Assembly: GCF_013214175.1 (NCBI RefSeq)
Contig: NZ_JABSPA010000002.1
Location: 1,178,001-1,242,000 of the forward strand
Direction of reading: 5' to 3'
DNA from: Colwellia sp.
Lineage (GTDB): Bacteria; Pseudomonadota; Gammaproteobacteria; Enterobacterales; Alteromonadaceae
Length of the DNA stretch: 64,000 bases
Shown here in pieces: positions 30,930-34,380 of this stretch; the first letter of the stretch is position 1; each line of letters starts with the position of its first letter. The notes under the pieces were generated by a model, which searched no databases, was not told where the DNA came from, and was given only the letters and a program-made list of their open reading frames with translations. Made by a program: the position numbers and the translations under genes.

Positions 30930-32534
30930 TTGACACTCTCATTAACAGATTATATTGGCGCCTTTAGCCAAAGTGAAAATTTAGCTGCCGTTGCCGGTAT
31001 TGGGCGCGGTATAGAGCGAGAAGCATTGCGCATATTGCCAGAAGGTAAATTATCTGAGCATAGTCATTATCATCAGCTGGGTTCAGCGCTGACCCATGGA
31101 CAGATAACTACCGATTATTCAGAGACTTTGCTTGAATTCATTACCCCGGTAAGTTATTCACCAGAGCAAGCTATTGCCCAATTACAAGACATTCAAAAGT
31201 ACACCTTTGAGAATATTGAAGGAGAACTGTTGTGGCCGATGAGTATGCCTTGTTTTGTTAATGATGCTGAAAAGATACCGCTTGCTCAGTATGGTAGTTC
31301 TAATATTGGTAAAATGAAGACGGTTTATCGTCAAGGGCTGAAAAATCGTTATGGCTCTATGATGCAAGTCATCTCAGGAATTCATTTTAACTTTTCATTT
31401 TCGCAAGATTTTTGGCAAGTACAACATAAGCTACATGAGACTGCAAAAATAGAGTCATCAGGTGAGCAGTCGTTACCGCTAGGTGACTTCATTTCTGAAC
31501 GCTATTTTTCTATCTTAAGAAATTATAAACGTTTTTGTTGGTTGATCCCCTATTTATACGGTAGCTCTCCGGCGATCTGTGGCTCTTTCTTACAAGGTAT
31601 AGAACATAAGTTACCTTTTAAAAAATCACCTTTTGGCGCGCTTTACCTTGAGCATGCTACTTCTTTACGCATGAGTGATTTAGGTTATACCAGCTCTGAG
31701 CAATCAACCTTGAAAATCTGTTACAACAACTTGGCAGATTATGTTGATGGTGTACAACAAGCGATAAAACTAAAATCTAAAGACTTTGCAGGCATTGGTG
31801 TCAAGGTTAACGGCCAATACCAACAACTGAACGACAATGTACTACAAATTGAAAATGAGCTGTATGCACCTATTCGTCCTAAACGAGTGGCTAAATCTGG
31901 AGAAAAGCCCTCTGTTGCGTTAGGAGAGCGTGGAGTAGAATACATTGAGGTGAGAGCTCTTGATGTTAATCCTTTTTCAGATACCGGTATTAGCATCGAA
32001 CAAGTTCACTTTTTAGATATATTCCTTACCTTTTGCGCTTTTGTCGACAATAAAGAGTTTGATTGCGCGGCACAAAAAATTCATGACTCGAATATGAATG
32101 AGGTAGTGTTACGTGGTAGAGACCCTGAGTTATTATTGTCTGATAGCAATAACCTAGGTGAAGTTAAACTTAAATCGGTTACTACTTGGGGTAATGAGAT
32201 ATTTGAGCAGCTGCAACTTGTGGCTGAGCTGTTAGATAAGGCTTACCAAACCAGTAATTACAGTGCCGCTATTGTTCGTGAGCAAGCTAAAATTAATGAT
32301 GCTAGTTTAACGCCTTCGGCGCAGCTAATATTGGCTATTCAAAAGCAGAGTTTATCAAGCTATGCTTTAGAGAAAGCCAGTCAATATCAACAACAGGCGA
32401 AAGCTCGCGATTACCAGTTTTATAACCAAGCCTTCTTTGACGAAAGTGTGCCGGCTTCTCATCAAGCGCAAGCTGAAATTGAAGCAGGTGATGTACTAGA
32501 TTTCGATGAGTTTTTATCTGACTATTTCGCTTAA
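30930..32534 (+). CDS. gshA: Glutamate-cysteine ligase
   Basis: First enzyme of glutathione synthesis, joining glutamate and cysteine with ATP. It is 534 residues and of the proteobacterial GshA type: 'GIGRGIEREALRI' near residues 22-34, 'TDYSETLLEFITP' near 60-72, 'SGIHFNFSF' near 147-155, 'YIEVRALDVNPF' near 335-346. The start codon is TTG at 30930, preceded by ATAGGAA at good spacing. The next elements downstream are a minus-strand terminator and the small-RNA-like array, so no operon partner. No gshB is in the window. Confidence 0.93.
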   Translation: MTLSLTDYIGAFSQSENLAAVAGIGRGIEREALRILPEGKLSEHSHYHQLGSALTHGQITTDYSETLLEFITPVSYSPEQAIAQLQDIQKYTFENIEGELLWPMSMPCFVNDAEKIPLAQYGSSNIGKMKTVYRQGLKNRYGSMMQVISGIHFNFSFSQDFWQVQHKLHETAKIESSGEQSLPLGDFISERYFSILRNYKRFCWLIPYLYGSSPAICGSFLQGIEHKLPFKKSPFGALYLEHATSLRMSDLGYTSSEQSTLKICYNNLADYVDGVQQAIKLKSKDFAGIGVKVNGQYQQLNDNVLQIENELYAPIRPKRVAKSGEKPSVALGERGVEYIEVRALDVNPFSDTGISIEQVHFLDIFLTFCAFVDNKEFDCAAQKIHDSNMNEVVLRGRDPELLLSDSNNLGEVKLKSVTTWGNEIFEQLQLVAELLDKAYQTSNYSAAIVREQAKINDASLTPSAQLILAIQKQSLSSYALEKASQYQQQAKARDYQFYNQAFFDESVPASHQAQAEIEAGDVLDFDEFLSDYFA

Positions 32535-32586
32535 AACTAGGTAGGACTGAGTGAATTCTTAATAGATAAACCAGTAGGATAGAGAT

Positions 32587-32612
32587 AAAAAAAGCGCGTC
32601 AAGTTGACGCGC
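32587..32612 (-). terminator. Minus-strand intrinsic terminator facing gshA
   Basis: Stem GCGCGTCAA (32594-32602) with TTGACGCGC (32604-32612), preceded on the plus strand by seven As. Read on the minus strand this is a GC-rich hairpin followed by seven Ts. It would stop transcripts coming from the array region before they run antisense into gshA. Confidence 0.75.
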
Positions 32613-32985
32613 CGGTTATCTAAGCAAACAATACTTAAATTAAATGAAAGCAATCCAGGGAAGAATGTTTCAATAGTTAAGACGTCGTATCAAACGAGAA
32701 GTTCACTTTATTTAAAAATTATTTATATTCATTAAGTTCATCCTGATAAAAACTGCCATAGTTTAATTCATTACCTAGAGCGCAGTAGACTACCATTTCC
32801 CCTTTTAGAACGCCCTGAAGCTTGTTTTAGCGATGAAAATGGCTAAAGCGAATACCTTACAAGTGATAGTGGAATAATAAGGCTGTTACGCTTACATGGT
32901 CTGTTATTAAACCTTATACCCATTCCGTTAAATTATTACCCACTTTTGCGGGGTAAAATACGCCAACGCGGCGTTGCTCTCAATC

Positions 32986-33066
32986 AAGCACCTAACTAAA
33001 ACTAAAAGGCGCGGTAAAAGCATGAGACATCACTAATAAGAGGCGGAATAACATAGCTGTTATTCG
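32986..33066 (-). ncRNA. Array unit 1 (type A), degenerate small-RNA-like unit
   Basis: Type A core on the minus strand: GAATAACA-GCTA-TGTTATTC hairpin, then a shared single-stranded stretch containing ATTAGTGATG and CATGCTTTTACC, then a decayed terminator (GCGCCT against AGGTGC, no T run). Most likely a dead or processed copy. Confidence 0.45.
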
Positions 33067-33094
33067 GTACATTTTCAGTTATTGAATTCTAGAC

Positions 33095-33203
33095 AAAAAA
33101 AAGCGCCTAACTAAAACTAGAAGGCGCGTAAAACATGAAACACTAAGGGAATAACATAACTGTTTAGTAAGAGTGCCACTTTTATGTTTAGTTCACATTA
33201 TTT
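33095..33203 (-). ncRNA. Array unit 2 (type B), candidate small RNA
   Basis: Minus-strand unit ending in a strong terminator: GCGCCT/AGGCGC stem (33103-33127) followed by eight Ts (33102-33095). Core ACTCTTACTAAACAGTTATG then TTATTCCCTTAGTG. Its sequence, including about 40 bp upstream (GTGAACTAAAC region), is nearly identical to unit 6, which suggests that a promoter is included in the conserved block. Confidence 0.6.
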
Positions 33204-33244
33204 CTAATTAAACATTAAAACTCACGATTTAATTTAGGGAAACC

Positions 33245-33297
33245 CGTAAAGCATGAGACATCACTAATAAGAGGCGGAATAACATCATGGTTATTCT
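33245..33297 (-). ncRNA. Array unit 3 (type A), lacking its own terminator
   Basis: Core identical to unit 1 over about 45 nt (GCATGAGACATCACTAATAA on the plus strand), with a GAATAAC/GTTATTC hairpin. At its 3' side only a weak GGGAAACCC remains, with no T run. Confidence 0.45.
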
Positions 33298-33315
33298 ATT
33301 CGCTGAATCGCAGAC

Positions 33316-33399
33316 AAAAAAAGTGCCTAACTAAAACTATAAGGCGCGGTAAAAGCATGAGGCGTCACTAATGAGGTCGGAATAACATAGTTGTTATTC
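33316..33399 (-). ncRNA. Array unit 4 (type A), candidate small RNA
   Basis: Minus-strand GAATAACA-ACTA-TGTTATTC hairpin, variable middle, then a GCGCCT/AGGCAC stem with one mismatch (33323-33347) and seven Ts (33322-33316). A TAGAAT overlaps the 5' hairpin, in a context (ATTCAGC..) shared with unit 3. Confidence 0.5.
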
Positions 33400-33418
33400 T
33401 ACTTGCTGAATGTCAGGT

Positions 33419-33511
33419 AAAAAAAGCGCTCAACAGTCTTTTAAAGGAACGAGAGAGCGTGTAAAAGCATGAAACGGTACTAATGATGGCGGAATAACAG
33501 TGTTGTTATAG
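33419..33511 (-). ncRNA. Array unit 5 (type A variant), candidate small RNA
   Basis: Divergent type A core (GGCGGAATAACA on the plus strand) with a 5' hairpin of ATAACA/TGTTAT type. The terminator is ACGCTC/GAGCGC (33426-33460, one G-U) with a longer, different loop, then seven Ts (33425-33419). Stem bases differ from units 2 and 6 while pairing is kept. Confidence 0.5.
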
Positions 33512-33530
33512 TTATCTCTAAATCCTAGGC

Positions 33531-33637
33531 AAAAAAAAGCGCTTAACTATAAAAGTAAGCGCGTAAAACATGAAACACTAAGGGAATAACATAACTGTTT
33601 AGTAAGAGTACCGCTTTAAGGTTTAGTTCAAATTATT
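33531..33637 (-). ncRNA. Array unit 6 (type B), candidate small RNA
   Basis: First unit in transcription order. Core as in unit 2 (ACTCTTACTAAACAGTTATG), terminator GCGCTTA/TAAGCGC (33539-33562) followed by eight Ts. Compared with unit 2 the stem has changed on both sides (GCGCCT/AGGCGC to GCGCTTA/TAAGCGC), i.e. compensatory change. Confidence 0.6.
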
Positions 33638-33759
33638 TTTATTTATTATTAAATAATTTTATCGGTTAACTTAAAGATGATAAATTTACTCGCAATAACT
33701 GCCATTGGTTAAGTGTTTCTGGCATTATCAAGGTAGATTTAAATAACTGTTATTTGTAT

Positions 33760-34380
33760 ATGCCTTCATGTAAAAAGACCTTAATAACTGCTGCAAGTGT
33801 TTTATTGCTGGTAAGTTGTGCAACACCACCTCCTAAAAACCCTGAAAATATTTGTGAAATATTTCGCGAACACCGTGATTGGTACTTTGCCGCTAAAGAT
33901 GTTCGTGAGCGCTGGGGTGTGCCTATACATGTGCCTATGAGTATGATGTATCAAGAAAGCTCTTTTCGTCATAATGCCATCCCACCAAGAGATTACCTCT
34001 TTGGTTTTATTCCTTGGGGTAGGGTGAGCAGCGCATATGGCTATGCTCAAGCTAAAACCATGACTTGGAAAGACTACGTGCGGGAAACAGGCAATTCAGG
34101 TGCTGATCGCGATGACTTTGATGATGCCATTGATTTTATGGGCTGGTTTATCTTTAAAACCCAAAAAGTGAATGGTGTCTCCAAATGGGACGCATATAAC
34201 CAATACCTAAATTACCACGAAGGCTGGGGTGGCTTTAAGCAGAAAAGCTATAAGAAAAAGCCTTGGTTAGTTAAGGTGTCGCGTAAAGTGGATAACCGAG
34301 CTAGGCGTTATAGTAGTCAATTAAAGAGCTGTGAAAAAGATCTCGATCATGGTTGGTTATGGCGATTATTCTTTGGCTAA
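33760..34380 (+). CDS. SLT-type transglycosylase-like lipoprotein
   Basis: Lipoprotein of about 206 residues: signal 'TLITAASVLLLVSC' with the lipobox Cys near residue 20, then a lysozyme-like domain. The catalytic glutamate is likely in 'MMYQESSFRHNA' (near residue 66), and 'SSAYGYAQAKTMTWKDY' and 'YLNYHEGWGGF' match SLT transglycosylase motifs. It probably cleaves or remodels peptidoglycan from the outer membrane's inner face. The ATG at 33760 is preferred; a TTG two codons upstream (33754) is possible. It is divergent from the small-RNA-like array. Confidence 0.8.
   Translation: MPSCKKTLITAASVLLLVSCATPPPKNPENICEIFREHRDWYFAAKDVRERWGVPIHVPMSMMYQESSFRHNAIPPRDYLFGFIPWGRVSSAYGYAQAKTMTWKDYVRETGNSGADRDDFDDAIDFMGWFIFKTQKVNGVSKWDAYNQYLNYHEGWGGFKQKSYKKKPWLVKVSRKVDNRARRYSSQLKSCEKDLDHGWLWRLFFG

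Follow-up and report, generated by a model that had tools for sequence, protein, structure and literature searches.

The array between gshA and the SLT_4 gene

In the window, by which we mean the whole 64-kb stretch of Colwellia DNA that was analysed, the 3' end of gshA (32534) and the start of a transglycosylase ORF (SLT_4, PF19489; 33754) enclose an array of small-RNA-like units, together with a dispersed repeat and a separate sRNA gene close to gshA. The features are:

33603..33629, minus strand: sigmaE-type promoter of unit 6 (type B), GAACTA-N16-TCTTA, with the geometry seen upstream of rpoE
33531..33596, minus strand: unit 6, putative type B sRNA of 66 nt, predicted +1 at 33596, T run ending at 33531, fold z -2.70
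33419..33499, minus strand: unit 5, type A, promoterless, from seed to T run
33316..33387, minus strand: unit 4, type A, promoterless, from seed to T run
33245..33296, minus strand: unit 3, type A, without terminator
33168..33194, minus strand: sigmaE-type promoter of unit 2 (type B), GAACTA-N16-TCTTA
33095..33161, minus strand: unit 2, putative type B sRNA of 67 nt, predicted +1 at 33161, T run ending at 33095, fold z -2.85
32986..33065, minus strand: unit 1, type A, T run missing beside the dispersed repeat
32914..32985, strand not assigned: dispersed repeat of about 72 bp adjoining unit 1, 40 places in the source genome
32678..32704, minus strand: sigmaE-type promoter of the gshA-proximal sRNA, GAACTT-N16-TCTTA
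32587..32671, minus strand: putative gshA-proximal sRNA ("unit 7"), 85 nt, predicted +1 at 32671, T run ending at 32587, three-hairpin fold, z -4.97

We found all six related minus-strand units, of two subtypes, where the original prediction had placed them. Their seeds (TGTTATTCC) start, from unit 6 to unit 1, at 33591, 33499, 33387, 33284, 33156 and 33053 on the minus strand, and the units are linked by repeat families, with 24 columns invariant across the six. Runs of seven to eight T are present in units 6, 5, 4 and 2 (33538-33531, 33425-33419, 33322-33316 and 33102-33095), and there is none in units 1 and 3, which had been described as lacking a terminator. A seventh T run, at 32593-32587, lies beyond the six array units. 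The original prediction needed revision here: the array does not lie opposite gshA, which ends at 32534 without overlap and towards whose 3' end the units point, and the segment 32587-32612, read as a terminator closing the array, is the end of a separate sRNA gene that has a promoter of its own. The view of the units as small RNAs with terminators stands insofar as minus-strand sRNA genes are present, but a recognisable promoter accompanies only two of the six array units.

SigmaE-type promoters and predicted start sites

Both type B units have GAACTA-N16-TCTTA upstream (from 33629 and 33194), in agreement with the earlier suggestion of promoters inside the type B repeats, and the gshA-proximal sRNA has GAACTT-N16-TCTTA (from 32704). 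On the two strands of 464 kb of the source genome (the 64-kb window and 20 further stretches of 20 kb each), the pattern GAACT[AT]-N16-TCTTA matches three times, each time in this cluster. In the 400 kb beyond the window there is no match at spacer 16, and across spacers 13-19 a single one, with a spacer of 17. The rpoE-rseA locus was located through the RseA family, and the ORF before rseA is RpoE (TIGR02939 equivalog, 312.6 bits, cut-off 236.15). GAACTT-N16-TCTTA stands just upstream of the likely rpoE start, where it is the sole coding-strand match of a looser pattern at that locus; under the same looser pattern, the rpoE locus of the relative G033 has the corresponding site and one weaker match elsewhere. 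Genes for RseA and Hfq are both present in the source genome.

In E. coli, micA carries GAACTC-N16-TCTGA-N6-GAAAG, with the annotated +1 seven nucleotides past the -10 element. The same six-nucleotide gap would put the +1 of the type B units at AGTTATG (33596 and 33161) and that of the gshA-proximal RNA at GAAACATT (32671). A loose unit pattern gave 131 matches, some of them spurious and within genes, in the first 30 loci (the source genome and 29 same-genus genomes), and the 61 promoter matches found there all have a 16-nt spacer, though 14-19 was allowed. Across 56 distinct promoter windows the spacer is poorly conserved, apart from the base before TCTTA (C in 55 of 56), and the AGT at the predicted +1 is identical in all 56; these windows had been selected for GAACT, TC[TA]TA and a loose seed, AGT not being a selection criterion. 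A scan for the sigma70 consensus found 6 sites against 4.7 expected, nothing above shuffles. In the cluster, RpoE-type promoters immediately precede predicted intergenic RNAs that have terminators, the arrangement by which the class of sigmaE sRNAs is recognised, and sigmaE, the sigma factor of envelope stress, appears to activate these genes. Readings of the locus as integron attC sites or as sigma54 promoters were considered by eye only and dropped.

Terminators and RNA folds

The covariation proposed for the terminator stems is borne out in the type B tails, where 33 of 33 distinct sequences fold into a stem before the T run, with compensatory changes: where paired, the fifth pair is UA, CG or UG and the sixth UA, CG, GC or AU. 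Compared with shuffles, the two type B copies of the window fold with z -2.70 and -2.85 and the gshA-proximal RNA with z -4.97. A simple terminator scan found 2 sites against 1.1 expected, namely the seventh terminator and one weak site; it missed the array terminators because their stems have longer or bulged loops, and individual folds do recover those of type B. RNAalifold on a MAFFT alignment (A2) did not recover the terminator, since the T runs were misaligned, and returned only four pairs, so that the type B model built for homology searches (R1) is essentially a sequence model. A 5' hairpin (GAATAACA/TGTTATTC) had also been proposed; it is present in the promoterless type A units but does not hold for the type B RNA, whose predicted +1 falls inside the corresponding stretch, so that the upstream arm would be outside the RNA. 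Given U runs of 7-8 and an Hfq gene in the genome, binding of these RNAs by Hfq is plausible.

Conservation of the sRNA family

Of 147 genomes searched, model R1 matched the full set of 39 from the same genus and 17 from other genera of the family; in the genomes of other families it gave no match at E<=0.01. A model of the gshA-proximal RNA (R2) found matches in 27 of these 39 genomes, in 13 from elsewhere in the family and in three from elsewhere in the order, several of them weak. The exact 21-nt core TTCCCTTAGTGTTTCATGTTT was found in 79 stretches of a genome-contig database, with titles naming Colwellia, Thalassotalea, Thalassomonas, Pseudocolwellia and Cognaticolwellia as well as unclassified Alteromonadaceae, Colwelliaceae or gammaproteobacterial genomes. 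A plasmid search gave no match. The 103 distinct core copies include two without upstream sequence, and a sigmaE-type promoter precedes 95 of the 101 that could be scored, always with a 16-nt spacer (16 was tried first, 15 and 17 were allowed). The -10 element of these 95 is TCTTA in 77, TCATA in 14, TCTGA in 3 and TCTCA in 1, and the remaining six copies have GAACTT with a deviating -10. A U run (at least six T) follows in 96 of the 96 copies with enough downstream sequence.

Synteny extends beyond the genus. Among 20 regions fetched around R1 matches, nine, all from other genera, contain both gshA and SLT_4, and each of the nine has one to five sigmaE-type units between the two genes (28 in total). 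The other 11 regions have no gshA within the 4 kb fetched; ten of them hold at least one unit and one (L217) has none under the pattern. The gain and loss of units, which the original prediction had framed as birth and death, is supported. Promoter-bearing members without gshA in 4 kb occur in L212, L215, L216 and L218-L224, with six in tandem in L212; an additional match with a 15-nt spacer in L223 looks spurious.

Relation to MicA and other known sRNAs

E. coli MicA, itself sigmaE-dependent, is encoded in the luxS-gshA gap, on the strand opposite to gshA and immediately past its 3' end. The Colwellia cluster shares with it the antisense position just 3' of gshA, a GAACTN-N16-TCTNA promoter with the +1 seven nucleotides after the -10, and a terminator with a U run (MicA RNA is 73 nt in E. 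coli), but it comprises several genes rather than one and is followed by SLT_4 rather than luxS. Neither the MicA-like position nor the sigmaE class of the promoters was part of the original prediction. Local alignments of the gshA-proximal RNA with MicA were within shuffles in all 15 pairs, and Rfam searches of 32500-33760 and of three relatives returned no MicA row at E<=10. Homology of the two RNAs is therefore unsupported by alignment or Rfam. The position is shared, and common descent is possible.

As for other families, neither the 64-kb window nor nine loci from relatives gave an Rfam 15 match at the gathering score; the original prediction, too, had recognised no known family. The best row below threshold in 32500-33760 lies at the gshA-proximal RNA (E=0.041; its 30.3 bits fall short of the gathering score, 81), the best in three relatives has E=0.046, and there was no RybB row in the searches of that segment and the three relatives. 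Among the papers listed from the literature covered, which takes in PMC5864184 and PMC13414033 but few subscription journals, none on this family was found.

That sigmaE-dependent sRNAs silence outer-membrane protein mRNAs is well known (PMC1804206, available text). RybB follows the same logic as proposed here, a sigmaE-made sRNA repressing many omp mRNAs, but the targets predicted here are receptors, not porins, and the flanking genes are not the same (PMC1804206, same text). VrrA, an sRNA of Vibrio cholerae, likewise depends on sigmaE and targets the mRNA of an outer-membrane protein (PMC2628432, available text); it differs in being 140 nt long, and was compared with the array by description. 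Tandem sibling sRNAs are also known: according to the portion of PMC4211561 available, OmrA/OmrB and PrrF1/PrrF2 are related sRNA genes side by side, with two copies each, whereas up to five promoter-bearing units occur in one gshA array of this family (L016, L207), each with its sigmaE-type promoter. What appears to be new here is a family of predicted sRNAs that has no Rfam entry, is multiplied at the place that micA occupies in E. coli and has promoterless units inside the array.

Predicted pairing with TonB-dependent receptor mRNAs

The source genome has 39 TonB-dependent receptor genes and G033 has 44. The start regions that we compared, from -50 to +30, came from 29 of the 39 and 27 of the 44 (30 receptor loci were sampled per genome, those absent from the test having failed the gene-picking rule) and were set against a background of 283 genes of the source genome (G000), which served for G033 as well, includes one receptor and may include other outer-membrane genes. 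For nucleotides 1-28 of type B the mean duplex energy was -13.8 kcal/mol on receptors of the source genome and -12.7 on those of G033, against -10.8 for the background, an enrichment with unadjusted p=5e-5 and p=0.0038, respectively. The receptor difference was reached by 0 of 60 mononucleotide-shuffled seeds for either genome, nucleotides 1-19 alone and 18-32 alone each gave 0 of 100, and receptors also paired better than 57 secreted-like background genes. Among the better-looking sites are GGGGAATAACAACT|ATG (L141), TTGGGAATAATACTAAT|ATG (L146) and GTAAGGGAAAGTCA|ATG (L138), and the word TAAGGGAA of the last also occurs in L199 of G033. An earlier, smaller test, superseded by the 283-gene one, had compared 36 outer-membrane genes (29 of them receptors) with 43 background genes and gave p=0.003 for type B and 0.76 for unit 7.

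For the gshA-proximal RNA there was no receptor enrichment by energy (p=0.71 in the source genome, 0.31 in G033); its nucleotides 12-29 gave a weak 6-mer enrichment (p=0.048 and 0.031), and a shuffle comparison gave 2 of 100 for G033 and 32 of 100 for the source genome. Start codons were chosen heuristically, by a rule that rewards Shine-Dalgarno words, and since in addition the p values are unadjusted, receptor targeting has the standing of a prediction: the statistics suggest TonB-dependent receptor mRNAs as targets of type B RNAs.

Weighing alternative explanations

Tandem arrangement, variable number and palindromic units are what one would also expect of a REP- or MITE-like DNA repeat that mimics RNA genes and has no RNA function, and a truly dispersed repeat does adjoin the array: the segment of about 72 bp at about 32914-32985 occurs at 40 places in the source genome (E<=1e-6, itself included), is also matched in relatives, and unit 1 ends at it exactly where its T run is missing. 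No inverted repeat was found around it in 32860-33010. The array itself behaves differently from dispersed copies devoid of conserved expression signals, since its other blastn matches in the source genome, among the 19 listed, are just 16-39 nt long with E>=0.127, since promoter, start region and terminator stay in register across copies, and since the terminators covary; we therefore consider such a repeat very improbable. A closer competitor accepts sigmaE control but makes a few other mRNAs the main targets, as MicA has ompA, with the receptor signal reflecting the composition of start regions. Exact complements of 12 nt of the seed fit this view, as they are at a start codon in 4 of 18 non-array places (drawn from 30 of the places listed), never at that of a receptor, and at the one place in the source genome they are not at a start codon. 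So do the gshA-proximal RNA, without a consistent receptor signal, and the 22 of 283 background genes that pair strongly with type B (<=-16 kcal/mol). However, shuffled seeds of equal composition never matched the receptor difference and receptors outscored secreted-like genes, which leaves this explanation, in our estimate, on the unlikely side.

The type A units call for a separate judgement. No sigmaE-type promoter (GAACT-N16-TCTTA) was found upstream of these four of the six array units, and as a recognisable promoter is confined to the two type B units, the type A ones are unlikely to be genes in their own right. That they are decaying duplicates without function has, to our minds, a somewhat better than even chance: besides having no promoter, two of the four in the window are without terminator, a type A unit delimited by a T run on either side folds no better than shuffles (z 0.49), and units anchored on the 3' module alone are present in 12 of the 30 loci. 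Yet the seed is well kept. A search that demanded the seed listed 43 promoterless units preceded by a T run; anchoring on the 3' module alone gave 25, of which 16 have the exact seed, 7 one mismatch and 2 two mismatches. The 23 with at most one mismatch come from 12 of the 30 loci, and an arm of at least 5 bp complementary to the seed lies just upstream in 70% of them against 18% after shuffling, although recent tandem duplication could explain this too. Type A units may accordingly be silent duplicates, read-through products or sponges. We hold improbable a two-tier device in which moderate stress would engage type B only, and high sigmaE activity would let polymerase run past one terminator after another and reach the type A units. 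In that case the self-complementary arm of type A would hide the seed or mimic its target, and type A RNA would act as a sponge that limits receptor repression.

A probable sigmaE-dependent sRNA module at the gshA flank

We consider it likely that the locus holds a MicA/RybB-like sigmaE sRNA module expanded into an array, with type B repressing outer-membrane protein mRNAs, chiefly those of TonB-dependent receptors. Promoters, terminators, conservation and synteny are read directly from the DNA; expression, Hfq binding, repression and any role of type A are inferred. Misfolded outer-membrane proteins would free sigmaE, which would then transcribe the two type B genes and the gshA-proximal gene. 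Their RNAs, about 66 and 85 nt long, would stop at intrinsic terminators with 7-8 U. The 5' region of type B, AGUUAUGUUAUUCCCUUAGUGUUUCAUG, probably with Hfq, would pair with the ribosome-binding and start region of outer-membrane protein mRNAs and thereby repress them, receptors above all. Extra type B copies would raise the dose, and type A units, as promoterless duplicates, would yield RNA only when polymerase passes a terminator upstream of them.

The family adds an sRNA absent from Rfam to ocean bacteria with dozens of TonB-dependent receptors. As unit number differs between genomes, it offers a natural test of sRNA dosage and of the birth and loss of sibling sRNAs. In L206, L208, L209 and L214, all from other genera, a further promoter-bearing unit is the one nearest SLT_4, with cores such as TTTCCCCTGGAC or TTTCCCTTGA; these are perhaps a third sibling type.

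MicA and its surroundings are conserved in Enterobacteriaceae (review PMC4618604, available text), and a MicA homolog has been placed in the bp3441-pyrD gap of Bordetella (2025, PMC12235514, available text). We found gshA in 20 of 24 genomes of other families, the locus being cut in one (L089). In the other 19 flanks a strict promoter pattern finds sRNA-like genes in two (L081, L082), reading by eye adds three (L075, L080, L073), one of them with two tandem units, and no obvious sRNA-like gene was seen in the remaining flanks. This suggests that sigmaE-type sRNA genes sit 3' of gshA in several bacterial families, their RNAs being unlike one another in sequence. Antisense sRNA-like units 3' of gshA (GCAAGAGTTGTTTTTTCAT or similar, followed by a terminator) number two in L080 and one in L073, which represent two other families, and by eye they differ in sequence from both MicA and the Colwellia array.
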